A stretch of 32,137 nucleotides of DNA from an uncultured Collinsella sp. (lineage in GTDB: Bacteria; Actinomycetota; Coriobacteriia; Coriobacteriales; Coriobacteriaceae), in NCBI GenBank assembly GCA_949285915.1, contig CASDZW010000021.1, positions 1 to 32,137 of the forward strand, given 5' to 3'. Within the stretch, counting starts at the first letter, position 1; each line of letters begins with the position of its first letter. The position numbers and the translations under genes were made by a program. Shown piece by piece: positions 2,801 to 15,796 of this stretch. The notes beneath the pieces are model-generated. The model made no database searches. It saw only the letters and a list, made by a program, of their open reading frames with translations, and had not been told where the DNA came from.

Positions 2801-5800
2801 TCACATTTCCCTTGCGTGGGCCGAGCGACCGCAGCGCTCGAGCAGCTCTGCGCATGCCTGCTCGGCAGCCGCGATATCGGCCTCGTCCGCCTGCCAGCTC
2901 CAGTTGCCCTCTGCAACGCCGGGCACGTTCATGCGGCAGTCGTCGCCAAGCCCCAGCACGTCCTGCAGCGGCATCATGACAAGTTCCGCATCGCTCGCAA
3001 GGGCGCACTCGACGAGCTTCTCGGCAAGCTCGGCTGCTGCCGTTTCATCGCCATCGGTGAAAGAGGACGCGCAGAAGCCCACGAGGGTGGCCGTGTCGTG
3101 CGTCGAGGTGTAGAGGATCTTCTCCGGCTTGGGATAGAGACCCGCCCGAATGTCGTAATCCTCAAAGAGCATCACGTCCATACCCGGGAAGCCGCAGGCG
3201 CTTACCAGCGAGCGCACGCCGGGGGTAAGTACGCCCAGGTCCTCGGCGATAAACGGCAGGGGGCCGAGCTCGGCGTAGGCGCGCTCAAAGAGCTCCTTGC
3301 CCGGACCCGGTATCCAGCGTCCATCGGAGCCGGGGTGGCCGGCGGGGATGGAGAAGTAGTTGTGGAAGCCGAGGAAGTGGTCGAGGCGCACCCGATCGTA
3401 GACGCGCGTGGCGCGGCGCAGGCGCGCGAGCCACCAGGCGTAGCCCTCCGCGCGCATGACATCCCAGCGATAGGTGGGGTTGCCCCAAACCTGTCCGCCG
3501 GGGGCGAAGTTATCGGGCGGCGCACCGGCGATCTCGGTCGGGCGTCCGTCGCGGTCGAGGTTGAAGAGCTCCGGGCGCGCCCATGCATCGGCCGAGTCGT
3601 CGGAGACATACATGGGGATGTCGCCGATGACCTCAATACCTTGCGCGTTGGCGTATCCCATAACGTCCTGCCAGGCAAGCTCAAAGCGGTACTGCAGGTA
3701 GGACTGGATATGCGCCTCCTTGGCAAGGCGCGCATCAGAGAGGAGCTCGGGCCGGTAGTGGCTAAACTCCTCCGGCCACTCGTGCCGCGAGGCGCCATCG
3801 GTGAGCTTCTTTATGGCCATAAAGGCGCAGTAGGGCTCGAGCCAGCTGCGCGCATCGGCCACGTAGTCGCGGTAGGCGATGTCAACACCGGCGCCGCCGC
3901 GCGCTTCCCAGGCGAGGTAGTCGGCGCGGAGCTCCTCTTCCGTCTCGGGCAGAAGGTCGATGTTGCCCGCAAAGGCGGAGGGACCGGCGTAGGGGGAGTT
4001 GTAGAAGTCCGTGGGGTTCACGGGCAGTACCTGCCAGTAGCGGAAGCCCATGGCCGCCAGGTGGTCGACAAAGCGCTTGGACGCATCGCCGAGCGTACCC
4101 GGGCGTCCGTCGTCGGTTGGCACGGAGGTGATGTGGCAGACCACACCGGCACCCTTATGCAGGGGCTCCTGCAGCCGGCGTGCGGGATGGAAGGAGACCA
4201 CGGCCGAGCCGAACGGCCAGAGGTGGACCTCCACAAAGCCCTCGGCGTCCACGGTGAGTTCGGCGCCCGAGACGACGTCGGTTGCGCACGCGCCACGAGC
4301 GGGAATGCGCACGGTCGCCTCGTTGGTGCGGCTGCGGTTGATGAGCACGGTTGCCGCCTCGCCGCGGTCGTTCACGCGGGTATAGCCGAGCACGTCGTCA
4401 CCGGAGGCAAAGGCCTCGATGCGGCCGTTCACGAGCACAGGGAGCTCACGACGGATGCCGGCGGCGTTCTTGATGATGGTCTCCATGTCGTACTCGTGCG
4501 GGTCACCGGGGCGCGGCAGGCCGCGACGGTTGCCGGGGTCAGAGAGACCCTCCAGGCCGTACTCGTCGCCGTAGTAGATGGACGGCACGCCCGGGAACGT
4601 CATCTGCATGAGCGTGGCGAGCCAGAAGCGCGCCTTGGCAAGCCCCATGGCCTCAGGGGAGAGGCGCCAGCGGCCGCGCTCCTCCTCGGGGAGCTTGCTC
4701 TCGTCGGGGCCGCCGCCGAGCACGCTCGCGATGCGCGGGCGGTCGTGACTGCCAAGAAGGTTCAGGCAGCAGGCGAGCGCCTCCGGCGGATAGTTCTCCG
4801 CCAAGCTCCAGATGACCTCGGCCGCATCGGCGGCGGAGATGTTGCCCATGAGGTAGTCGATGACCATGGTGCGGAACGGGTAGTTCATGGCCGAGTCGAG
4901 CTCCTCGCCCTGGAGGTAGTGGCGGGGCTTGCCGTAGCTGATCTTATTTGAAGCGTCCTCCCAGACCTCGCCGAGCAAGAGGGCGTCGGGCTTCTCCTCA
5001 GTCAGAACCTGCTTGATGTCGGCGATGAGGTCCTCATGGAGCTCGTCAGCCACATCGAGACGCCAGCCGCGCGCACCGGCGCGCGTCCAGTGGCGGATGA
5101 CGCCGTCCTCGCCGAGCAGCAGCTCACGCACGAGCGGGGAGTCCTGGTTGAAATCGGGCATGTTGTCGATGCCCCACCAGCACGCGTAGGTGCCGTCCTC
5201 CTTGAACTCGTAGGCGTCGCGCCATGGAGAGTTGGGGTTATTCCACGCGCCCTCATCCGGATAGTTGCCAAACCGGTTGAAGTAGCGGGAATCGTCACCG
5301 GTGTGGTTGAAGACGCCATCCAAGATGATGGAGATGCCAAGTTTCTCGGCAGCGGCGCAGAGGCTCTTGAAATCCTCCTCCGTGCCGAGGATGGGGTCGA
5401 TCTTGAGGTAATCGGCGGTATCGTAGCGATGGTTGCTCGCCGCCTCGAAGATGGGGTTCAGGTAGATGGCAGTGATGCCAAGCTCGGAGAGGCGCGGCAG
5501 GTCCTCCTCGATGCCCTTGAGCGAGCCGCCGTAGAAGTCCCAGTACTTGATCGATCCGTCCTCGTTACGCTCGTAGACCGGCGGCTCCCACCAGTCCTCG
5601 ATGAGGCGGCGCTGAACGCCGTTGCGGGGGATGGAGAGCGCTGCCTCGGTGCGCTCGCGCCAGGCGGCATCGCGGCGGTAGCGGTCGGGGAAGATCTGGT
5701 AGACCATGCCGTTCTCATACCACGACGGGCGTGTGGCGCGATGGCGGTAGACGCTGATCTGGAACGACGGGCAGTTCGCATAATCGTAGGGCACGCCCTC

Positions 5801-6115
5801 TCCGCCTACGTGTCCCTCGCGCGCGCCGAGGTGCATAACGTGCGTGCCGTCCGCTTCGTTCCACGTCGCATGGAAGGTGTACCAGATGTTGGCGGTGCGG
5901 GGGCAGGCGAGGGTGTAGGCGTAGAGACCCTCGTCGTTGAGCGCCATCTCGTGCAGGCGCTCGCCCTCACCATCAACCCAGGTGCGCAGGGTGACGGTGA
6001 TAGGACTCGAGACGGGGTCTTCAACGCGGACCGCCAAGGTAACAGAGCCCCCGACTTCAACCGCTCCAAACGGCGAGCGGAATTCCGGCAGGCGAGAGTT
6101 ATGGATGAGCTTCAT
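2801..6115 (-). CDS. GH13 neopullulanase-like amylase fused to GH77 4-alpha-glucanotransferase
   Basis: A 1104-residue two-enzyme fusion. Residues 1 to about 120 resemble the N-terminal beta domain of neopullulanases (NSRLPEFRSPFGAVEVGG). Residues about 130-645 are a GH13 alpha-amylase barrel: VFNHTGDD, nucleophile Asp354 in GWRLDVADE, acid-base Glu383 in LLLGEVWED, and Asp458 in GSHDRPR. From about 655 a GH77 (MalQ, amylomaltase) domain begins (GVVCHITSVPT), with Asp912 in RLDHFLGF, Glu958 in FIAEDLG and Asp1007 in STHDT. Both triads look complete, so it should hydrolyse or debranch malto-oligosaccharides and disproportionate the products. No signal peptide is seen, so it is probably cytoplasmic. 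The open frame reaches a GTG at 6184, but that codon lies 3 bases from a -10 box; the ATG at 6115 matches the family start, although its ribosome site (GGAAA) is weak. Confidence 0.93.
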   Translation of the reverse strand: MKLIHNSRLPEFRSPFGAVEVGGSVTLAVRVEDPVSSPITVTLRTWVDGEGERLHEMALNDEGLYAYTLACPRTANIWYTFHATWNEADGTHVMHLGAREGHVGGEGVPYDYANCPSFQISVYRHRATRPSWYENGMVYQIFPDRYRRDAAWRERTEAALSIPRNGVQRRLIEDWWEPPVYERNEDGSIKYWDFYGGSLKGIEEDLPRLSELGITAIYLNPIFEAASNHRYDTADYLKIDPILGTEEDFKSLCAAAEKLGISIILDGVFNHTGDDSRYFNRFGNYPDEGAWNNPNSPWRDAYEFKEDGTYACWWGIDNMPDFNQDSPLVRELLLGEDGVIRHWTRAGARGWRLDVADELHEDLIADIKQVLTEEKPDALLLGEVWEDASNKISYGKPRHYLQGEELDSAMNYPFRTMVIDYLMGNISAADAAEVIWSLAENYPPEALACCLNLLGSHDRPRIASVLGGGPDESKLPEEERGRWRLSPEAMGLAKARFWLATLMQMTFPGVPSIYYGDEYGLEGLSDPGNRRGLPRPGDPHEYDMETIIKNAAGIRRELPVLVNGRIEAFASGDDVLGYTRVNDRGEAATVLINRSRTNEATVRIPARGACATDVVSGAELTVDAEGFVEVHLWPFGSAVVSFHPARRLQEPLHKGAGVVCHITSVPTDDGRPGTLGDASKRFVDHLAAMGFRYWQVLPVNPTDFYNSPYAGPSAFAGNIDLLPETEEELRADYLAWEARGGAGVDIAYRDYVADARSWLEPYCAFMAIKKLTDGASRHEWPEEFSHYRPELLSDARLAKEAHIQSYLQYRFELAWQDVMGYANAQGIEVIGDIPMYVSDDSADAWARPELFNLDRDGRPTEIAGAPPDNFAPGGQVWGNPTYRWDVMRAEGYAWWLARLRRATRVYDRVRLDHFLGFHNYFSIPAGHPGSDGRWIPGPGKELFERAYAELGPLPFIAEDLGVLTPGVRSLVSACGFPGMDVMLFEDYDIRAGLYPKPEKILYTSTHDTATLVGFCASSFTDGDETAAAELAEKLVECALASDAELVMMPLQDVLGLGDDCRMNVPGVAEGNWSWQADEADIAAAEQACAELLERCGRSAHAREM

Positions 6116-6153
6116 AGGGGTTTCCGATCTATCTGCCGCCCGGACGTACAGGA

Positions 6154-6168
6154 TTGACAGAGCGTCAA
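6154..6168. promoter_or_regulatory. Dyad operator candidate in the GH13-GH77 leader
   Basis: A perfect dyad TTGAC-N5-GTCAA lies about 12 to 26 bases downstream of the predicted transcription start of the GH13-GH77 gene and 39 bases before its ATG. This size and place suit a repressor dimer. No regulator can be named. Confidence 0.4.
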
Positions 6169-6178
6169 GAATTGGGCA

Positions 6179-6247
6179 GCCCACCTATTATAAGGGAGAG
6201 CGCCGCCCATAGAAGGCATAGTTCAACAGTTTTAGGTGGGCTGTTGA
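6179..6247. repeat. Nested inverted repeats around the GH13-GH77 promoter
   Basis: GCCCACCTA (6179-6187) is perfectly complementary to TAGGTGGGC (6233-6241), 45 bases apart. The first copy touches the -10 box and the predicted start; the second lies about 55 bases upstream. Separately, TCAACAG (6223-6229) pairs with CTGTTGA (6241-6247). These arrangements resemble binding sites for a looping or paired regulator, but could also form RNA structure at the end of glgA transcripts. Confidence 0.45.
6187..6192 (-). promoter_or_regulatory. Candidate -10 box of the GH13-GH77 gene
   Basis: A perfect TATAAT on the minus strand. The predicted start is near 6180, giving a leader of about 65 bases. No good -35 box is found at 16-18 bases (CTTCTA at 17), so an activator or another contact may be needed. 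It lies within a pair of 9-base inverted repeats (6179-6187 and 6233-6241). Confidence 0.5.
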
Positions 6248-6332: not shown

Positions 6333-8600
6333 CTAGCGCCTGGTCGTGCGCTTCTTGGCAGCGCTCACCGAAGCGGTCTTAGTCGCGGGCTTCGCGGCCG
6401 GCTTGGCGGGCGTCTTCTTAGCGGCATCGTCAGCCTTGGGCGCTGCGGCGGGCTTGGCTGCGGTGGTCGTCTTTGCGGCGGGCTTAGCCGTGGCAGTCGA
6501 CTTAGCAGCGGGCTTGGCTGCGGCGGGCTTTGCCGCAGCTGCCTTGGCAGCAGGTTTTGCTGCGGCAGGCTTTGCCTCAGCAGCCTTGGTTGCCGTCTTG
6601 GGCGCGGCAGCCTTCGTGGCGGTAGTCTTTGCAGCACTGGCCTTCGTAACGGCAGGAGCCTTCTCAGCGGGCTTGTTGGCGGGCTTTGCCTCTGCCGTCT
6701 TGGCGGCGGGCTTGGCGGCCGCCTTGCTGGTAGCAGGCTTCTCAGCGGCCTTTGCCGTGGTCTTGGCCTCAGCCGTCTTAGGCGTGCTCGCGGCCTTGGT
6801 CGCGGTCGTCTTGGGGGCAGCCTTTGCCGCGGTCGTCTTCTTGGCGGTAGCGGCCTTGGGGGCAGCCTTCTCCGCAGCCGGCTTGGCAGCGGTCTTGCGT
6901 GCGGCAGGCTTCTTCGCCGCCGGCTTCTCAGTTACTTTTGGGGAGCTCGCTTTCGCGGCCTTCTCCTCAGCTGGTTTAGGCTCGGGCTTAACCTCGGGCT
7001 TCTTGGCGGGCTCGGGCTTGGCCTCCGCTTTGGGCTCAGGCGCAGGAGCCGGCTCGGGCTTGGGCTCAGGCTTTGCCTCGGGCTCCGGCTCGGCGACGGG
7101 CTTAGGCTCGGGCGCCGGGGGAGTGGGCGGGACGGGCTGGACATCGGGGCGCAGGAAGGTGTAGAGGTCCATGTAGGCGCCCGCAGAGCGCTTCCACGAG
7201 AAGTCGGTCTTCATGGCCTGCTCGACGACGCGGTTGAAGGCGTCGCGGTCGTCCCAGAACAGACGGGCGCCGCGGAAGACGGCGTCGCCCATCTCGTCGC
7301 CGTTGAAGTTGGCGAACGAGAAGCCCGTGCCCTCGCCGGTCTCGTAGTTGTAGGGGATGACGGTGTCGCGCAGACCGCCGGTCTCGCGGACCACCGGCAG
7401 GGTGCCGTAGCGCATGGCGATGATCTGCGACAGGCCGCAGGGCTCAAAGAGCGACGGCATGAGGAAGAGGTCGGCGCCGGCGTACATGCGGCGGGAGAGC
7501 GCGGAGTCGAAGGTGATGCGCGCGGCCATGGTTCCCGGGTACTTGCCCGCGAAGTAGTTCATGGCGTCCTCGTAGGCGCGGTCGCCGGTGCCGAGCACCG
7601 CCACCTGGACGCCGCCAGAGAGGATGCGGTCGAGCGAGTAGGTGACGAGGTCCATGCCCTTCTGGCGGGTGAGGCGGGTCACCATGACCATGAGCGGACG
7701 GTCGTCGCGGACCTCGAGGCCGAGCTCCTCCTGAAGCGCGCGCTTGCAGGCGGCCTTGCCTGCCATGTTGTCCACGCTGTAGTTCTCAGTGATCTGGTAG
7801 TCGGTCGCAGGGTCCCAGGACGGCTCGTCAATGCCGTTCAGGATGCCCTGGAGGCTCTCGGAGCGGTTGCGAAGCACCCAGTCCAGGCCCTCGCCGTAAT
7901 CGGAGGTCTTGATCTCGCGGGCGTAGCTCGGGCTGACCGTGGTGATGGCGTCGCTGTAGCAGAGCGCGCCCTGCATGAAGTTGATGGAGCACGAGTCGCA
8001 GCGGAGCTGGCGCGCTGCGTTGGGGATGTGCGCAAGGCCCAACACGTCGTTCAGCATCTTGTCGGAGAACTGACCTTGGAAGGCGATGTTGTGGATGGTG
8101 AAGATGGTCTTCACGCGCTCGTACAGGGGAAGACCCTGGTAGAACTCGCGCAGAAAGACCGGGGCGAGGGCGGTCTGCCAGTCGTTGCAGTGCAGGATGT
8201 CGCATTCAAAGCCCTCGGGGAGGTGCTGGAGGCTCTCGCAGATGGCCTTCGAGAAGAAGGCGAAGCGCTCGCCGTCATCAAAGAATCCGTACGGGTAGCT
8301 GCGGTTGAAGTAGTGCTCGTTATCCACGAAGAGGTAGGTGACCCCACCCTCCTCGAGCTTCTCGAGGCCGCAGTACTCGTTGCGCCATCCGAGCGGAACG
8401 TAGAAGTCGCAGAAGTGCTCCATACGCGCTTTGAACTCCTCGGGGATGCTCGCGTACTTGGGGCACATGACGATGACCTCGGAGCCGTCCTTCACGAGCT
8501 CCTGGGGAAGGGATCCCGCAACGTCGCCGAGTCCGCCCGTTTTGACAAAGGGGGCCACCTCGGCGGAGGCGAAGACCACATGCATCTTGTCTTTTGCCAT
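6333..8600 (-). CDS. glgA: Glycogen synthase with a long basic repeat tail
   Basis: Adds glucose from ADP-glucose to growing alpha-1,4-glucan chains. Residues 1 to about 485 form a complete GT5 glycogen synthase: the ADP-glucose site KTGGLGDVAGSLP at 20, and the C-terminal motif FEPCGLSQIIAMRYGTLPVV. Typical family members stop near 480 residues. This one runs to 755. Residues about 487-546 are Pro-Glu-Lys repeats (like TonB linkers), and about 547-755 are Ala-Lys-Pro-Thr repeats with almost no acidic or aromatic residues, ending in AAKKRTTRR, like a histone H1 C-terminal tail. The start MAKDKMHVVFASAEV follows AGGAGAG by 7 bases; the upstream extension of the frame is not expected to be translated. 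The tail is in frame with no break, so it is not a frameshift artefact. Confidence 0.95.
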   Translation of the reverse strand: MAKDKMHVVFASAEVAPFVKTGGLGDVAGSLPQELVKDGSEVIVMCPKYASIPEEFKARMEHFCDFYVPLGWRNEYCGLEKLEEGGVTYLFVDNEHYFNRSYPYGFFDDGERFAFFSKAICESLQHLPEGFECDILHCNDWQTALAPVFLREFYQGLPLYERVKTIFTIHNIAFQGQFSDKMLNDVLGLAHIPNAARQLRCDSCSINFMQGALCYSDAITTVSPSYAREIKTSDYGEGLDWVLRNRSESLQGILNGIDEPSWDPATDYQITENYSVDNMAGKAACKRALQEELGLEVRDDRPLMVMVTRLTRQKGMDLVTYSLDRILSGGVQVAVLGTGDRAYEDAMNYFAGKYPGTMAARITFDSALSRRMYAGADLFLMPSLFEPCGLSQIIAMRYGTLPVVRETGGLRDTVIPYNYETGEGTGFSFANFNGDEMGDAVFRGARLFWDDRDAFNRVVEQAMKTDFSWKRSAGAYMDLYTFLRPDVQPVPPTPPAPEPKPVAEPEPEAKPEPKPEPAPAPEPKAEAKPEPAKKPEVKPEPKPAEEKAAKASSPKVTEKPAAKKPAARKTAAKPAAEKAAPKAATAKKTTAAKAAPKTTATKAASTPKTAEAKTTAKAAEKPATSKAAAKPAAKTAEAKPANKPAEKAPAVTKASAAKTTATKAAAPKTATKAAEAKPAAAKPAAKAAAAKPAAAKPAAKSTATAKPAAKTTTAAKPAAAPKADDAAKKTPAKPAAKPATKTASVSAAKKRTTRR
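6336..7145 (-). repeat. Low-complexity Ala-Lys-Pro coding repeat in glgA
   Basis: The 3' third of glgA is built from degenerate repeats of short units such as AAKPAAK and TATKAA, coded by GC-rich triplets. The DNA strands are strongly biased: on the plus strand, GCGGGCTT and GCAGCC type words recur. Such arrays can change length by replication slippage or recombination. Confidence 0.85.
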
Positions 8601-8717: not shown

Positions 8718-9824
8718 TTAGTGGCGTGCTCCCTTGCCCATCACGAGGATCGCGTCGGGTGTGCCGCGGTACTCGGTGTTCTCGGGGATGACATTGTTCT
8801 TGTCGAGGATGGCGTTCTCGACACGGGCGCCGCGCTTGATGACGCAGCTGAACATGATGATGGAGTTCGAAACATTCGCACCGCTCTCGACGATAACGCC
8901 GCGGGAGAGGATGGAGTTGCGAACCGTGCCGTAGATCTTGCAGCCAGCGGAGATGAAGGAGTTCTGCGCGTTGCTGCCCGCATAGTACTTGGCGGGTGCC
9001 GCGTCGTGCGCCTTCGTGCGAATCGGGCGATCCTTCTGGAAGAGCTGGTCGAAGACATCGGGCGTGAGGAGCTCCATGCTGCGCTGGTAGTAGGTGCGCT
9101 CGCCGAAGATGCCGATGGCGAGGCCCTTGTACTCGTAGCTGCAGACGTCGATGCGCGCGAAGTCGCCCGCGATAGCCTCGAAGAAGTCGAGGTAGTCGGC
9201 GTTCGCGTAGTTGTTGATGATGTCGAGCAGAAGCTCGCGGTTGATGACGAAGCAGTCGATGAACTTGTTGTCACCGTACTCGCAACCGGCCTCGATCGAC
9301 TGAACGCGGCCCGCGTCACCGATGATGAGGCGGCTGGCGTCGTCGTGATGGCGCTCGGCCTTGACGTAGACCATGGTCACGCCCACGCCGGAGCGCTCAT
9401 GGGCATCGATGATCTCGTCGAGGTCCATGTTGAAGATTATGTTGGCGCCCATCATCACGACATAGGGGGTCGTGGCGCGCTCGAAGAGTTCGCGGTTGGA
9501 GATGATGTCGCGCAGAAGGAAGCGCATACCGCGCTTGGTGGTGCCGTAGGGGTTGCCGGGCATGCAGAACAGGCCGCCGCTCTTGCGGTCGAGCATCCAG
9601 TCCTTGCCGTGACCCACATGGTCGGAGATCGAGCGCCAGTTGCCCGGCATGACGAGGCCGACGGTGCGGATGCCGGCGTTGGTCATGTTGGAGAGCGGGA
9701 AGTCGATCAGACGGTAGCGGCCCATGAACGGCAGCGACGCCACGGGGCGGTTCTCTATCAGTTTGCTGGCTTCAGTGCCCGCGTAGTTAGCAGTGATATA
9801 GCCGATGGCCTTGGAGTTGATCAT
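8718..9824 (-). CDS. glgD: GlgD subunit of ADP-glucose pyrophosphorylase
   Basis: A 368-residue GlgC paralogue. It has the nucleotidyltransferase fold and the C-terminal left-handed beta-helix (from about residue 270), but lacks the N-terminal GGxGxRL phosphate loop that GlgC has, starting instead IGYITANYAG. Such GlgD proteins, known from Firmicutes, are largely inactive alone and boost GlgC activity in a heterotetramer. It follows glgC with 4 bases between stop and start; its ribosome site, AAGGGGG, is inside the end of glgC, so the two subunits are probably co-translated. A GlgD is uncommon among classical Actinobacteria. Confidence 0.92.
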   Translation of the reverse strand: MINSKAIGYITANYAGTEASKLIENRPVASLPFMGRYRLIDFPLSNMTNAGIRTVGLVMPGNWRSISDHVGHGKDWMLDRKSGGLFCMPGNPYGTTKRGMRFLLRDIISNRELFERATTPYVVMMGANIIFNMDLDEIIDAHERSGVGVTMVYVKAERHHDDASRLIIGDAGRVQSIEAGCEYGDNKFIDCFVINRELLLDIINNYANADYLDFFEAIAGDFARIDVCSYEYKGLAIGIFGERTYYQRSMELLTPDVFDQLFQKDRPIRTKAHDAAPAKYYAGSNAQNSFISAGCKIYGTVRNSILSRGVIVESGANVSNSIIMFSCVIKRGARVENAILDKNNVIPENTEYRGTPDAILVMGKGARH

Positions 9825-9828
9825 CGGT

Positions 9829-10974
9829 TCATTCCCCCTTCCCGATCACGACGTCATTTCCGACGACGGCGGTGTCCTTCGTAGTATCGACGCTGCCGAG
9901 CTTGACGCCCTCTTCGACGACGGCGTTCTCACCCAGGATCGCGCGGCTCACATGCGCACCGTTCTTAACGACGGCGCCGGGCAGCAGCACGGAGTCCTCG
10001 ACGATGGCGCGGTCGCCGACCACGCAGTCGGTGGAGATGATGGAGTGGCGCACGGTGCCCATGATCTTGCAGCCGTTGGCGACGAGCGAATCGTCGACGC
10101 GGCCGTCGGGGCCGATGTAGTGCGGCGGGCGAGTCGAGTCGTTCGACATAATGGGATGCTTGGTGTCGAAGAGGTCGAACTCGGGGTTCTCGCCGAGCAG
10201 GTCCATCGAGGTCTCGTGATAGCTCGCGATGGTGCCGACGTCCTTCCAGAAGCCGTTGTACTCGTGGACGAACAGGCGCTTGCCGTCAGCGAGGGCCTTG
10301 GGGATGATGTCGTTGCCAAAGTCGTGGCTCGAGCGCTGGTTGATGGCGTCCTCCTCGAGGGCGTTCACGAGGAAGTCATAGGAGAACACGTAGATGCCCA
10401 TGGAGGCGAGGTTCGAATCGGGCTGCTCGGGCTTCTCGGTGAACTTGGTGACCTGATGATCCTCATTGGTCGTGAGGATGCCAAAGCGGCTCGCGTCCTC
10501 CCACGGCACCGGCATGACCGCGATGGTGAGGTCGGCGTTGTTGGTGATGTGGGTGGCGAGCATCTCACGGTAATCCATGCGATAGAGTGCGTCGCCCGAG
10601 AGGATGAGAACGTACTCGGGGTGATGGGACTTGATGTAGTCGAGGTTCTGCGTCACGGCGTCAGCGGTGCCGGCATACCAGGCGCCGCCCTCCTGCGTGG
10701 CGTATGGCGGGAGGATAGAGATGCCCGCGCCGGTCTCGTTGAGGTCCCAGCCGCGGCCCGAGCCTACGTACTCGTGAAGCTGGTAGGGACGGTACTGCGT
10801 AAGGACGCCGACCGTGTCGATACCAGAGTTAGCGCAGTTGGACAGCGTGAAGTCAATGATGCGGTACTTGCCGCCGAATGAGACGGCTGGTTTGGCGATC
10901 TTAGCGGTGAGCGCCCCCAACCTGCTGCCCTGCCCCCCGGCGAGGAGCATCGCGATGCATTGCTTTCTACTCAT
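9829..10974 (-). CDS. glgC: Glucose-1-phosphate adenylyltransferase (ADP-glucose pyrophosphorylase)
   Basis: Makes ADP-glucose from glucose-1-phosphate and ATP, the committed step of bacterial glycogen synthesis. The 381-residue protein opens with CIAMLLAGGQGSRLG, the phosphate-binding loop (residues 13-19), followed by KPAVSFGGKYRIIDF, a family signature. The C-terminal part carries hexapeptide-type repeats (VVGDRAIVEDSVLLPGAVV) of the beta-helix regulatory domain. AAGGAGA precedes the ATG. It lies directly before glgD and is the catalytic partner. Confidence 0.96.
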   Translation of the reverse strand: MSRKQCIAMLLAGGQGSRLGALTAKIAKPAVSFGGKYRIIDFTLSNCANSGIDTVGVLTQYRPYQLHEYVGSGRGWDLNETGAGISILPPYATQEGGAWYAGTADAVTQNLDYIKSHHPEYVLILSGDALYRMDYREMLATHITNNADLTIAVMPVPWEDASRFGILTTNEDHQVTKFTEKPEQPDSNLASMGIYVFSYDFLVNALEEDAINQRSSHDFGNDIIPKALADGKRLFVHEYNGFWKDVGTIASYHETSMDLLGENPEFDLFDTKHPIMSNDSTRPPHYIGPDGRVDDSLVANGCKIMGTVRHSIISTDCVVGDRAIVEDSVLLPGAVVKNGAHVSRAILGENAVVEEGVKLGSVDTTKDTAVVGNDVVIGKGE

Positions 10975-11092: not shown

Positions 11093-13519
11093 TTACGCGT
11101 GCCAGATCTCGTCGCGGTACTCGCGGATGGTGCGGTCGGACGAGAACCAGCCCGAAGACGCGGTGTTCATAAGCGCACGGCGGTTCCAGCTCTTGCGGTC
11201 CGCATAGCTGGCGGTGAGCTCCTCCCACGCGTCAACGTAGGAGCGGAAGTCCTTCATGACAAAGTCATGGTCGTTTCCGCTCATGAGCTCATTATGGATG
11301 CTTTCGAAGTCACCCGAGAGATGAGCAAACGTGTTATCGGTGAGTTCGTCAATAACGCGCCCTAAACGGTCACGGTCGCTGTTGTACATATCCCATGCGA
11401 AGTGCATATGGCTTGCACGGAGCTCGTCGACCTCAGGTGCGGTGAGACCAAAGATCTTCTCGTTCTCGATGCCGGCGAGGTTCACGATCTCGATGTTGGC
11501 GCCGTCCATCGTGCCGAGCGTGAGCGCGCCGTTCATCATGAGCTTCATGTTCGAGGTGCCCGAGGCCTCCATACCGGCCGTGGAGATCTGCTCAGAGATC
11601 TCGGCGGCGGGGTAGATGAGCTGGGCGTTCGACACGCGGAAGTTGGGGATGAAGCAGACCTTCATGACCTCGTTCACACGCGGGTCGTTGTTGATGACGT
11701 CGGCGACCGAGTTGATGAGGCGGATGGTCTCTTTGGCAAACGCGTAGCTCGACGCGGCCTTGCCCGAGAAGATGAAGGTGGTGGGCGCCACGCGGAAGTT
11801 GGGGTCGGCAAGGCGGCGGTTGTAGATGTCCATCACCTTGAAGATGTTCAGGAGCTGGCGCTTATAAGCGTGGAAGCGCTTCACTTGGACGTCGAAGATC
11901 GAGTTGGGGTCGATGTCGAGACCGCACTCGCGCTTGACGTACTTGGCAAGGCGCACCTTGTTGGCGCGCTTGGCCTCGCCCACGCGCTCGAGGAACGCCG
12001 GGTCGTCGGTAAAGTCCTTGAGCTTCTCGAGCTCGGCGGCGTCGTCGAGCCAGCCGGTGCCGATGGCCTCGTTGATGAGCTTGGTGTAGGAGGGGTTCGC
12101 CTCGGCGAGGAAGCGACGGTGCGAGATGCCGTTGGTCTTATTGTTGAACTTCTGCGGCGTGAGCTCATAGAACTGCTTCAGCGTCTCGCGCTCGAGGATG
12201 TCGGTGTGGATCTTGGCCACGCCGTTGACGGAGTGCGAGCAGATGACCGAGAGGTTCGCCATGCGGACCTCGCCGTCCCAGAGGATGGCGGTCTTGCGCA
12301 GACGGTTCTGCCAGTCCTCGGAGGTGCGATCGAAGCTGTCGCTGTAGCGGCGGTTGATCTCGTCGATGATCTGGTAGACGCGCGGCAGCAGCTTGGAGAA
12401 CGTGGAGATGGGCCACTTCTCGAGCGCCTCGGGGAGGATGGTGTGGTTGGTGTAGGAGATGGTGTTGGTCACGATCTTCCACGCCGTGTCCCACTCGAGC
12501 CCCTTCTCGTCCATGAGGATGCGCATGAGCTCGGGGCCGCACATGGCCGGGTGCGTGTCGTTGGTGTGGATGGCGACGTAGTCGGGCAGCTGCTCCCAGT
12601 TAGCGCCAAAGTCCTTCTCAAAGGTGTCGAGCAGGCTGTAGATGCCCGCGGAGACAAAGAGGTACTCCTGCTTGAGGCGCAGAAGACGCCCGTGCTCGCC
12701 GGCGTCGTTGGGGTAGAGGATGGCGGAGATCGCCTCGGCCTCGGCGCGGTGCGCGTCGGCACCGGCGTAGTCGCCGCGGTTGAAGGCCTCGAGGTCGAAC
12801 TGCTCCTCGACGGGCTCGGCGCTCCAGACGCGGAGCTTGTTGACGGTCTCGCCGCCGTAACCCACCACGGGAATGTCATAGGGGACCGCGAGGACGTCCT
12901 GGGTGCCCTCGGTATGGAAGACCATGCGGCCGTCCTTCTCCACGCCCACGACGTGACCGCCGAAGCCGATGCGCACGGCGCGGTCGGGGCGGCGGACCTC
13001 CCAGGGGTAGCCGTGGGAGAGCCACTCGTCGGTCGTCTCGTGCTGGGCGCCGTTCACGATCTCCTGCTTGAAGAGGCCGTAGCGGTAGCGCATGCCGTTG
13101 CCGTAGCCGGCGATGCCCTCATGGGCCATCGAGTCGAGGAAGCACGCCGCAAGACGGCCGAGGCCGCCGTTGCCGAGCGCGGGATCGGGCTCAAATTCGC
13201 AGAGCTCGTCGAGGTCGGCACCGAGGTCGGCGAGGCCCTCCTTGACGATGTCGCGCACACCGAGGTTCAGCAGGTAGTTGTCGAGCAAGCGACCGATGAG
13301 GAACTCGATGGAGAAGTAGTAGACGCGCTTCTTCTTCTCGGTAGAGACGCGCTTCTCGGTATCGGTCTGGATGGCGCGGGCACGCCCGGCGATGAGCTTT
13401 GCCAGCGCGGTGAAGCGGTCGAGGTCGCTCGTCTTCTCAAAGGGCTTGCCAGAGAGGGACATGATCGAGGCCTTGTAGCCCTCGATGAACTCCTCTTTGC
13501 TGTCGAAGATCTTATTCAT
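11093..13519 (-). CDS. glgP: Glycogen/maltodextrin phosphorylase
   Basis: Releases glucose-1-phosphate from the non-reducing ends of alpha-1,4-glucans using phosphate and pyridoxal phosphate. It is 808 residues, a normal length. The PLP lysine is Lys659 in EASGTSNMKLMMNGA. Other family blocks visible are EPDPALGNGGLGRLAACF and TNDTHPAMCGPELMRI. The start at 13519 (MNKIFDSKEEF) has AAAGGA 5 to 6 bases upstream. The frame is open 25 codons further, but that stretch covers the promoter candidate, so the shorter form is preferred. Its product can feed back into the glgC reaction or glycolysis. Confidence 0.96.
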   Translation of the reverse strand: MNKIFDSKEEFIEGYKASIMSLSGKPFEKTSDLDRFTALAKLIAGRARAIQTDTEKRVSTEKKKRVYYFSIEFLIGRLLDNYLLNLGVRDIVKEGLADLGADLDELCEFEPDPALGNGGLGRLAACFLDSMAHEGIAGYGNGMRYRYGLFKQEIVNGAQHETTDEWLSHGYPWEVRRPDRAVRIGFGGHVVGVEKDGRMVFHTEGTQDVLAVPYDIPVVGYGGETVNKLRVWSAEPVEEQFDLEAFNRGDYAGADAHRAEAEAISAILYPNDAGEHGRLLRLKQEYLFVSAGIYSLLDTFEKDFGANWEQLPDYVAIHTNDTHPAMCGPELMRILMDEKGLEWDTAWKIVTNTISYTNHTILPEALEKWPISTFSKLLPRVYQIIDEINRRYSDSFDRTSEDWQNRLRKTAILWDGEVRMANLSVICSHSVNGVAKIHTDILERETLKQFYELTPQKFNNKTNGISHRRFLAEANPSYTKLINEAIGTGWLDDAAELEKLKDFTDDPAFLERVGEAKRANKVRLAKYVKRECGLDIDPNSIFDVQVKRFHAYKRQLLNIFKVMDIYNRRLADPNFRVAPTTFIFSGKAASSYAFAKETIRLINSVADVINNDPRVNEVMKVCFIPNFRVSNAQLIYPAAEISEQISTAGMEASGTSNMKLMMNGALTLGTMDGANIEIVNLAGIENEKIFGLTAPEVDELRASHMHFAWDMYNSDRDRLGRVIDELTDNTFAHLSGDFESIHNELMSGNDHDFVMKDFRSYVDAWEELTASYADRKSWNRRALMNTASSGWFSSDRTIREYRDEIWHA

Positions 13520-13571
13520 GGGGTCCTTTCTGTCGGCTGACGCCGAGTTGCTAGGCGAACACAACTTTTCC

Positions 13572-13600
13572 ATTATCGCGCAAATCGGGTTCATGGTAAA
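13572..13600 (-). promoter_or_regulatory. Candidate promoter of glgP
   Basis: On the minus strand, TTTACC (13595-13600, 4 of 6) and GATAAT (13572-13577, 5 of 6) are separated by exactly 17 bases. It lies in the 84-base gap after glgB, giving a leader of roughly 45 bases. Confidence 0.55.
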
Positions 13601-13603
13601 ACG

Positions 13604-15796
13604 TTACGCCTTCGTTTTCCGGTCAGCGGCGGTGTCCTTGGCGGCACGCGGCTTCGTGGTGGTCTTTTTAGCGGTGGTCCGAGTAGCAGCCTTGGCGGCG
13701 GGCTTCTTCTTGGGCTTCGGCGGCACATAGGAGCTCTTCCCGATGCGCTTCAGCACGATGCCCGAGAGGCCGGGGAGCGCGAGCGTGATGGAGTTGTCGC
13801 AGCCGTTCCACGGATAGGGCTCGCTCGAGCACACTGCCCCCTCGAGCTTGTCGAGCATGTAACCGCTGCCACCGAACTCCGGTTTGTCAGAGTTGAAAAT
13901 GACCTGCCAGTCGCCCTCGCGCGGCACGCCCATGCGGAAGGTCTCGTACGACGCCGGATCGAAGTTGATGATCACGATGACGTCGTCCTTCTTCTTGCTG
14001 CCGTGGCGCGTGAAGGAGATGATCGACTGCTCGTTGTTGTCCGGGTCGATCCAGGTGAAGCCATCCTCGGTGTAGGCGTTCTCCCAGAACGCGGGCTCAG
14101 AGAGATAGAGGTGGTTGAGCGCGCGCACGAACTCGCGATGGTTGCGGTGCGCGTCGAACTCGTCGGCAAGGAACCACTCAAGCGACTCGTAATAGCGCCA
14201 CTCGATGAAGGGCGCGATCTCGTTGCCCATGAAGTTGAGCTGTGCGCCGGGGTGGGCCATCTGGTAGAAGGCGAGGGTGCGGAGCCCCGCGAACTGGCGC
14301 CACTGGTCACCGGGCATGCGGCCCATGAGCGAGCACTTGCCGTTCACGACCTCGTCGTGGGAGAGCGGCAGGACAAAGTTCTCGTTGAAGGCGTACATGA
14401 GCGAGAACGTGAGGAGCCGGTGCGCGCCCGGGCGCCACGGGAAGTCGGTCTGCATATAGTGCAGGGTGTCGTTCATCCAGCCCATGTCCCACTTGTAGTG
14501 GAAGCCGAGTCCGCCCTCCTCGGGAGGATAGGTGACGAGCGGCCAGGCGGTGGATTCCTCGGCGATCATCATGACGTCGGGGAACTCGCGGCCTACGGCG
14601 CAGTTGACCTGGCGGATGAAGGCGGAGGCGTCGAGGTCCTCCTCGGTGCCGTACTTGTTGAACTTCTTCTGGCCGGGGTCGTCGACGCCAAAGTTCAGGT
14701 AGAGCATGCTCGACACGCCGTCCATGCGGATACCGTCGGCGTGGAACATCTCGAGCCAGAAGAGGGCGTTAGAGACAAGGAAGCTGCGCACCTCGCCGCG
14801 ACCGAAGTCGAACTTATGGGTGCCCCAGTTGGGATGGATCTCGCGCTCGTAGAGCATCTTGCCGTTAAACGTTGCGAGGCCCTCGGCGTTGGCGCAGAAG
14901 CCGCCCGGCACCCAGTCCAGAATCACGCCGATACCCGCCTTATGGCAGCTCTCGATGAAGTGCATGAACTGCTTGGGCGTGCCGTAACGCGCGGTGGCAG
15001 CAAAGTAGCCGGTCGGCTGATAGCCCCAGGACCCGTCGAAGGGATGCTCCATCACGGGCAGGATCTCGATATGGGTGTAGCCCATGTCGCGCACGTACTC
15101 GACGAGCTCGGTCGAGAGATCGTCATAGGTGTAGTAGGTGCCGCGCTGCGCGGGGAACGGGTCGCCCGGGCCCGGGTAGTTGCCGTTCTCGTCCGGTTCG
15201 CCCTGCGGATCGTTGCCGTGGCGGCGCCAGCTGCCCAAGTGCACCTCGTAGATGTTGAGGGGCTGCTTCATGTGGTCGCGGCGCGCGCGGTTGCGCATCC
15301 AGACGCCGTCTTTCCAGTCATACCCGGTGATATCCATGAGGCGGGATGCCGTGCCGGGGACGTTCTCGGCAAAGAAGCCGTAGGGGTCGGCCTTGTAAAG
15401 AAGCGTGCCGTCCTGCGTCTCAATCACATACTTATAGAGCTCACCTTCCGGCAGGCGGGGGACAAAGCCCTGCCAGACACCGCTATGAGCGAGCTGCTCG
15501 AGGGGGTTGGCCCAAGAATCCCAGCCGTTGAAGTCGCCCACGACATGGACGCTCTTAACGTCGGGTGCCCATACGGCAAAGTGCCAGCCGGGCTCACCGT
15601 TCTGCTCGTCGGGGTGGGCGCCGAGCTTCTCCCAGCTGCGCAGCCAGGTGCCGTTGGCAAACATGTAAAGGTCGTCCTCGGTGATGATGAGGAGCGGCTT
15701 TTCTGCCTTTGCCTTGGTGCGGCGGGTCCGGCGCACGGGCTTTTGCGTGGTTGCGGTTGCAGTGGCGGTATCAGGTGCTTCTGGCTTCTTTTCCAC
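13604..15796 (-). CDS. glgB: 1,4-alpha-glucan branching enzyme with basic tails
   Basis: Creates alpha-1,6 branches in glycogen. It is 730 residues. A CBM48-type domain (VWAPDVKSVHVVGDFNGWD) occupies about 70-190, then a GH13 barrel with Asp359 in DGIRMDGVSSML, Glu413 in MMIAEESTAWP and Asp481 in LPLSHDEVV; spacing matches E. coli GlgB. The N-terminus (about 1-34) is Thr-, Arg- and Lys-rich (KPVRRTRRTKAKAEK). The C-terminus, after the normal end near 688, adds about 40 residues rich in Lys, Ala, Thr and Pro (PPKPKKKPAAKAATRTTAKK). Both tails echo that of GlgA. The start is GTG, preceded by AGGGGAAG; no ATG gives a better start. Confidence 0.95.
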   Translation of the reverse strand: MEKKPEAPDTATATATTQKPVRRTRRTKAKAEKPLLIITEDDLYMFANGTWLRSWEKLGAHPDEQNGEPGWHFAVWAPDVKSVHVVGDFNGWDSWANPLEQLAHSGVWQGFVPRLPEGELYKYVIETQDGTLLYKADPYGFFAENVPGTASRLMDITGYDWKDGVWMRNRARRDHMKQPLNIYEVHLGSWRRHGNDPQGEPDENGNYPGPGDPFPAQRGTYYTYDDLSTELVEYVRDMGYTHIEILPVMEHPFDGSWGYQPTGYFAATARYGTPKQFMHFIESCHKAGIGVILDWVPGGFCANAEGLATFNGKMLYEREIHPNWGTHKFDFGRGEVRSFLVSNALFWLEMFHADGIRMDGVSSMLYLNFGVDDPGQKKFNKYGTEEDLDASAFIRQVNCAVGREFPDVMMIAEESTAWPLVTYPPEEGGLGFHYKWDMGWMNDTLHYMQTDFPWRPGAHRLLTFSLMYAFNENFVLPLSHDEVVNGKCSLMGRMPGDQWRQFAGLRTLAFYQMAHPGAQLNFMGNEIAPFIEWRYYESLEWFLADEFDAHRNHREFVRALNHLYLSEPAFWENAYTEDGFTWIDPDNNEQSIISFTRHGSKKKDDVIVIINFDPASYETFRMGVPREGDWQVIFNSDKPEFGGSGYMLDKLEGAVCSSEPYPWNGCDNSITLALPGLSGIVLKRIGKSSYVPPKPKKKPAAKAATRTTAKKTTTKPRAAKDTAADRKTKA

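Follow-up and report, generated by a model that had tools for sequence, protein, structure and literature searches.

Histone H1-like tails on glycogen synthase, branching enzyme and an amylosucrase-family enzyme of Collinsella and relatives: a possible mooring of nascent glycogen to the nucleoid

Introduction

Lysine-rich tails of the histone H1 type are described on two bacterial granule proteins. PhaF of Pseudomonas putida carries a KPAA-type tail that is reported to bind DNA and to spread PHA granules (PMC13052382, PMC9239181). AlgP of Pseudomonas aeruginosa, with 25 perfect KPAA motifs and a net charge of +55, is described as residing on polyphosphate granules, whose even spacing requires the tail (PMC9239181). 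Enzymes can also carry such sequences: the lysine-type repeats of Streptomyces topoisomerase I (TopA) are reported to stabilise DNA binding (PMC7398561). In E. coli, accumulation of glycogen and GlgA-GFP at the old poles and their unequal sharing have been described (PMC4836754). The main text of a 2025 review on bacterial organelle positioning contains no occurrence of glycogen, and the placement and inheritance of bacterial glycogen have apparently been little studied. Among the literature matches listed, no earlier report of such tails on glycogen enzymes was found.

Here we describe a glycogen synthase (GlgA) encoded in the window, the whole stretch of 32 137 nucleotides that was analysed. 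It shares with PhaF a KPAA-type C-terminal tail on a granule-associated protein and with AlgP an H1-like tail rich in KPAA. PhaF differs in having a granule-binding N-terminal part that is not an enzyme and in serving PHA rather than glycogen, whereas AlgP differs in its polyphosphate granules, in a helical N-terminal domain whose function is unknown and in its larger number of KPAA motifs (25 versus 11). Actinobacterial topoisomerase I resembles GlgA as an enzyme with an H1-like lysine-rich C-terminal tail, but its substrate is DNA and its tail confers processivity (PMC7398561). Ordinary bacterial GlgA (TIGR02095) has the GT5 domain in common and, in nearly all of the loci compared outside the Coriobacteriia, ends close to that domain, without a basic tail. 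The disordered, lysine-rich KPAA tail that characterizes tethers of the PhaF/AlgP type is present in the window GlgA, and a Pfam scan found neither a phasin nor an AlgP-like N-terminal domain in it. GlgA is thus not a member of the PhaF/AlgP family, since its N-terminal domain differs, although by analogy it is plausible that its tail works as theirs do.

The GlgA gene and its catalytic domain

The gene lies on the minus strand in a reading frame that, on translation, is open from 8654 to the stop codon at 6333. The likely start is ATG 8600, which has a Shine-Dalgarno-like AGGAGAG upstream and with which the starts in relatives concur. The gene comprises the following features.

6333..8600, minus strand: GlgA (ATG 8600, stop 6333), 755 residues, consisting of a body of 482 and a tail of 273 residues
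7155..8600, minus strand: catalytic part of GlgA, residues 1–482; GT5, ADP-glucose glycogen synthase, from profile matches and pLDDT
6969..7154, minus strand: Pro-Glu-Lys linker, residues 483–544 (62 residues), net charge −2
6336..6968, minus strand: basic Ala-Lys-Pro-Thr tail, residues 545–755 (211 residues), net charge +40

GlgA contains a complete, ordinary GT5 domain above curated cut-offs. It scores 541 bits against TIGR02095 (cut-off 328), with positions 1–475 of the 477 in the profile covered, 647 bits against NF001898 (cut-off 603) and 270 bits against the Pfam family PF08323; with E values up to 0.1 the Pfam scan returned nothing but glycosyltransferase domains. In an AlphaFold2 model calculated from a 17-sequence alignment the body is well folded, with pLDDT values of 79–98 for ten-residue blocks up to residue 490. 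The catalytic part is acidic (pI 4.8, net charge −21) and the entire protein has a pI of 9.06. The gene belongs to a glycogen gene cluster, in which GlgB is identified by a curated model and the neighbours, in the window and in relatives, are presumably GlgP-, GlgC- and GlgD-like.

Composition of the GlgA tail

The tail as a whole (residues 483–755; window positions 7154–6336, minus strand; 273 residues) has a net charge of +38 and a pI of 10.3, and is composed largely of Ala (93), Lys (56), Pro (47), Thr (31), Glu (20) and Arg (5). Its C-terminus reads SVSAAKKRTTRR, the last residues being KKRTTRR. An earlier note on this DNA had described an unbroken frame from the GT5 domain into about 270 extra residues, made up of about 60 of Pro-Glu-Lys and then about 200 of Ala-Lys-Pro-Thr, with an H1-like make-up, a strong positive charge and a KKRTTRR end. 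Translation bears out each of these points. Of the span that it gave for the tail, 6336–7145, the boundary at 6336 stands and that at 7145 does not, as the tail starts 9 bases farther out, at 7154 on the minus strand.

Tail statistics were compiled for 31 GlgA tails, each 100 residues or longer (the window and L031–L068). KPAA occurs 11 times across the whole window tail and 0–11 times among the 30 relatives, one tail of the 31 being devoid of it. Residues 501–755 have pLDDT values of 28–44 and no secondary structure in the AlphaFold2 model, and the tail is accordingly predicted to be disordered. Neither GlgA nor GlgB matched the HC2 profile of histone H1-like nucleoproteins (PF07382).

Distribution of tailed GlgA

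For the counts, families and genera were coded as f1, f5 and g1–g6, the genera all lying within f1. A GlgA tail of 112–467 residues is present in 37 of the 41 f1 loci read, six of which had been selected for extreme frame length, and is a conserved trait of this bacterial family. By genus it is found in 8/8 loci of g1, 3/3 of g2, 21/21 of g3, 1/1 of g4, 4/4 of g5 and 0/4 of g6, where GlgA ends 5 residues past the domain. Carriers include Collinsella sp. An307, An268 and An7, C. stercoris, C. massiliensis and Enorma burkinafasonensis. The net charge is low in g2 (+3 to +9, one tail being clipped by a contig end); the GlgA tail of G018 is clipped by a contig end, and no match to GlgA was obtained in two f1 genomes, G002 and G026.

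This search across homologues, which the earlier note had proposed, also settles the matter of a frameshift or gene fusion. Such an artefact is excluded, as the frame continues unbroken past the domain at 37 of the 41 f1 loci; a complete Collinsella stercoris chromosome is among the loci with an open frame.

Outside f1 but within the same order, 4 of 18 loci have a GlgA tail (G227, G282, G276 and G236), a fraction that is no rate because the loci were chosen partly for long open frames. The GlgA of Olsenella RUG014 has no tail, nor have 11 of the 14 f5 loci read. The GlgA tail is thus dispensable in general, as it is absent from g6 and these f5 loci, where GlgB is mostly tailed. A quick tree with 63 rows puts the smallest number of changes in the trait at three, the number of gains being unsure.

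Beyond the Coriobacteriia, 64 of 66 GlgA loci aligned over more than 400 residues, and in 63 of these 64 the protein stops no more than 7 residues past the domain. No basic tail was found among the 64, the single tail being charge-balanced. To our knowledge, E. coli GlgA is likewise without such a tail. In a survey of the phylum, GlgA was detected in 47 of 296 genomes, of which 33 belong to other orders. From these 33, six with long frames were selected and read; in five the protein stops no more than 9 residues past the domain, and the sixth (L254) has a 450-residue extension with a net charge of −12. The charge-balanced tail mentioned above belongs to an Oscillospiraceae GlgA (L085) and consists of a EEAARKAAEEAAAKKAA repeat of 106 residues with a net charge of −4; the adjoining GlgB has a lysine-rich tail with a net charge of +16.

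GlgB and the remainder of the glycogen operon

The neighbouring genes of the operon are listed below, the names of GlgP, GlgC and GlgD being presumed.

13604..15796, minus strand: GlgB branching enzyme, 730 residues; NF008967, 815 bits (cut-off 577)
13607..13726, minus strand: basic C-terminal tail of GlgB, 40 residues, net charge +12
11093..13594, minus strand: presumably glycogen phosphorylase GlgP; no tail
9829..10974, minus strand: presumably a GlgC-like ADP-glucose pyrophosphorylase subunit; no tail
8718..9824, minus strand: presumably a GlgD-like ADP-glucose pyrophosphorylase subunit; no tail
2801..6184, minus strand: GH13 and GH77 fusion of the debranching/4-alpha-glucanotransferase type (PF00128, PF02446); no tail in the window

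The N-terminus of the window GlgB is basic as well (net +6 in the first 38 residues). In a first set of 39 loci, three without a GlgB gene, all 36 GlgB proteins have a basic C-terminal tail, of 22–158 residues and net charge +5 to +33. In a second set, of twenty regions, 18 GlgB ends were read; 13 carry a net charge of at least +5, the values being lower in G225, G078, G156, G178 and G172. The f1 genomes G178 and G172 combine a tailed GlgA with weakly charged GlgB ends (+4 and +2, respectively). Where GlgA is untailed, GlgB has a tail in 3/3 loci of g6 and 9/10 of f5. Outside the Coriobacteriia, tails that reach 20 residues and net charge +5 are found on 6 of 25 GlgB proteins; a phylum-wide survey of GlgB was set aside, since in it tails are indistinguishable from upstream open frames.

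No tails were found on GlgP, GlgC or GlgD in the operon loci compared. Relative to the window C-termini, GlgP extends by 0 residues everywhere, GlgC by 0 or 1 but by 18 in L068, and GlgD by −2 to +7. The GH13–GH77 fusion has C-terminal extensions of 15–35 residues in L034, L042, L046, L050 and L053. In a control covering 15 neighbouring gene families, each seen at four or more of 41 loci, the tail score was reached by GlgB (25/29), GlgA (22/28) and the debranching fusion (1/36) and by no other family; operon genes account for a large share of this set, and some genes were missed by the crude ORF calling. The fusion, which lies at the end of the glycogen operon, scores 912 bits against a GlgX/MalQ fusion model with a cut-off of 1322.

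A third tailed enzyme

The genome of the window, an assembly that is 82% complete, was scanned for codons specifying KPAAK. Eight matches were obtained, six in GlgA, one in GlgB and one in an amylosucrase-family enzyme, against two for the reversed control pattern; KPAAK is a motif derived from the tail of GlgA, and it does not pick up the TopA tail encoded in this genome. The third match lies near the N-terminus of a GH13 enzyme encoded elsewhere in the genome (C23), and the tail is thus N-terminal. For its counterpart in G003 (97% identical), the 18 best solved sequences are amylosucrases or sucrose hydrolases, the closest being 4ays (E = 6e-109). By these nearest solved relatives the enzyme belongs to the amylosucrase family, presumably subfamily GH13_4, with synthesis of glucan from sucrose as its putative activity. 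It is present in 27 of 60 genomes. About 12 of 26 N-terminal extensions are long and basic by eye and the rest short, weaker or near neutral, these lengths depending on tentative start codons. Against PF07382 (HC2) its N-terminal tail scores 17 bits, below the cut-off of 40.

Tails are therefore carried by GlgA, GlgB and the amylosucrase-family enzyme, and GlgC, GlgD and GlgP of the operon have none. A protein search of the window's genome with the basic GlgA tail retrieved the tail itself alone, which is no evidence of absence because GlgB and the amylosucrase-family enzyme were missed too. A broader pattern gave 10 matches in the same genome, eight in GlgA and GlgB and two elsewhere, neither of these a tail. 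Among the matches listed for 20 genomes, many are chance helices or non-coding frames; matches outside the operon were examined from 10 genomes, and in each of these only some were coding.

A possible mooring of glycogen to the nucleoid

The occurrence of these tails beyond GlgA, on GlgB and the amylosucrase-family enzyme, is new relative to the earlier note, which had proposed anchoring to the nucleoid, to polyphosphate or into a granule. That proposal is plausible by analogy, and it is strengthened because two further enzymes have the same kind of tail and because PhaF and AlgP are known tethers. We consider it an even call that the tails act as polycationic disordered tethers by which glycogen, as it grows, is moored to the nucleoid or to some other polyanion. 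The enzymes that lengthen or branch alpha-glucan are GlgA, GlgB and, putatively, the amylosucrase-family enzyme, which would place all three on the granule during its growth. Through their tails they would attach without specificity to a polyanion, nucleoid DNA being the likeliest, and DNA-bound tails could then spread granules along the chromosome, so that the granules would be shared by daughter cells and not driven to the pole. The Pro-Glu-Lys block of GlgA might serve as a stiff spacer that keeps the basic part off the acidic body and the glucan surface. We infer DNA binding, granule attachment and positioning by the tails; the nucleoid is favoured because the KPAA tails of PhaF and AlgP bind DNA and E. 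coli glycogen is polar. The tail of topoisomerase I, a DNA-binding protein of these genomes, points the same way, since sequences of this type stabilise DNA binding in Streptomyces TopA (PMC7398561).

The more specific proposal, held somewhat tentatively, is of a glycogen-positioning system inside the polymerising enzymes, in which the H1-like tails of three enzymes moor nascent glycogen to the nucleoid. With similar reserve, such a system may be seen as a counterpart of PhaF and AlgP, a tail on each enzyme replacing a dedicated tether protein. If this is true, a third storage polymer would join the KPAA-tail strategy known from PHA and polyphosphate. Three tailed glucan-building enzymes beside untailed GlgC, GlgD and GlgP make polymerase-driven positioning directly testable in common gut bacteria.

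Charge order and assembly

The partner of the tails need not be DNA. The tails of the three enzymes and the acidic body of GlgA could attract one another and so build a glycogen-synthesis cluster or condensate, which we judge unlikely. The tailed enzymes do all work on one polymer, and the GlgA catalytic part and tail differ sharply in pI (4.8 versus 10.3). Moreover, acidic residues lie towards the front of the GlgA tail and basic residues towards the rear (p < 0.01 against shuffled sequences for 22 of the 31), and GlgB tails have few acidic residues (0–9 each). However, the front block of the window tail is merely net −2, and the first third of the tail, with net charge at or below zero in 22 of 31 tails, is positive in 9, the window's own being +4. 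GlgB also mostly retains its tail at loci with an untailed GlgA, which argues against such an assembly.

Selection on the tail

The tails might instead be weakly constrained low-complexity growth, in which simple repeats expand in GC-rich genomes and Ala-Lys tails are merely tolerated; we consider this rather improbable. Tandem repeat units are present in the GlgA tail DNA, the length varies widely (112–467 residues) and unrelated proteins have similar tails (see below). Against this, dN/dS is 0.21–0.45 for the tail (0.01–0.11 for the body) in 15 pairs of relatives, which are not independent because some have genomes in common. In five close pairs with no genome in common (window–L032, L035–L036, L031–L033, L056–L059 and L061–L064), charge is altered in 45 of 177 amino-acid changes, below the 0.37–0.41 expected from a random-mutation model that disregards transition bias. 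Five divergent pairs, with tails 53–62% identical and unsure alignments, show no such shortage (272/567, above the random 0.35–0.41), and selection on charge at each position is thus seen only in the short term. Low-complexity growth is further opposed by the retained frame in 37 of 41 loci, by the recurrence of tails on GlgA and GlgB across genera, by the charge blocks ordered in 22 of 31 tails and by lysine spacing: for 16 of the 31, K/R residues in the last two thirds of the tail show a regularity of spacing that exceeds 99% or more of shuffles. The other 15 do not reach this level, and in L040 and L048 the spacing is less regular than in most shuffles. The GlgA tail thus appears to evolve fast and yet to keep its frame, being maintained, if loosely.

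In one genus (G011/L040), the GlgA tail has 26 Arg and 15 Lys and no KPAA but is still net +22. Since this tail, with arginine and without KPAA, keeps its charge, overall charge seems to be more important than the KPAA motif. At this locus both the GlgA and GlgB tails are rich in Arg and Ser in place of the usual Lys, Ala and Pro; the topoisomerase I tail of G011 is of the lysine type despite this.

Polyphosphate and self-regulation

As a variant of mooring, the tails might link glycogen to polyphosphate granules and so join energy and carbon stores, which seems quite improbable. AlgP, with a similar tail, is located on such granules (PMC9239181), and of 10 genomes searched for polyphosphate kinase PPK1, 9 gave a match. 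The sole miss is the window's own assembly (82% complete), and the presence of PPK1 says little because 7 of 14 control genomes have it too. That the basic tail folds back onto the oppositely charged GT5 domain and tunes its activity, perhaps via lysine acetylation, is very improbable: GlgB is tailed as well, the very low pLDDT suggests an unstructured tail (although AlphaFold2 does not reliably show fuzzy contacts), and the arginine-rich G011 tail (R 26, K 15, net +22) also weakens acetylation as the main point of the tail, an idea raised in the earlier note.

Similar tails on unrelated proteins

The tails are genuinely specific to glucan-building enzymes, though with exceptions. In each of the eight genomes examined, topoisomerase I ends in a basic tail, lysine-rich in seven, and relatives of the window have similar tails on TopA, a ferredoxin-like protein, ribosomal proteins S16 and L31, and FtsQ-like and esterase-like proteins, where S16, L31 and FtsQ are identifications that we assume. 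The ferredoxin-like protein (L181 in G003, which was scanned by Pfam, and L199 in G006) has an Ala-Lys-Glu-Pro tail. Two proteins with long Ala-Lys-Pro tails (L187 and L190; G013, g6) gave no Pfam match at E values up to 0.01, L190 having been scanned minus most of its tail; both occur in g6, the genus with untailed GlgA. In f5, two esterase-like proteins (PF00756; L184 in G048 and L192 in G227) have C-terminal KPAAK tails of about 220 and 110 residues, respectively, as estimated by eye.
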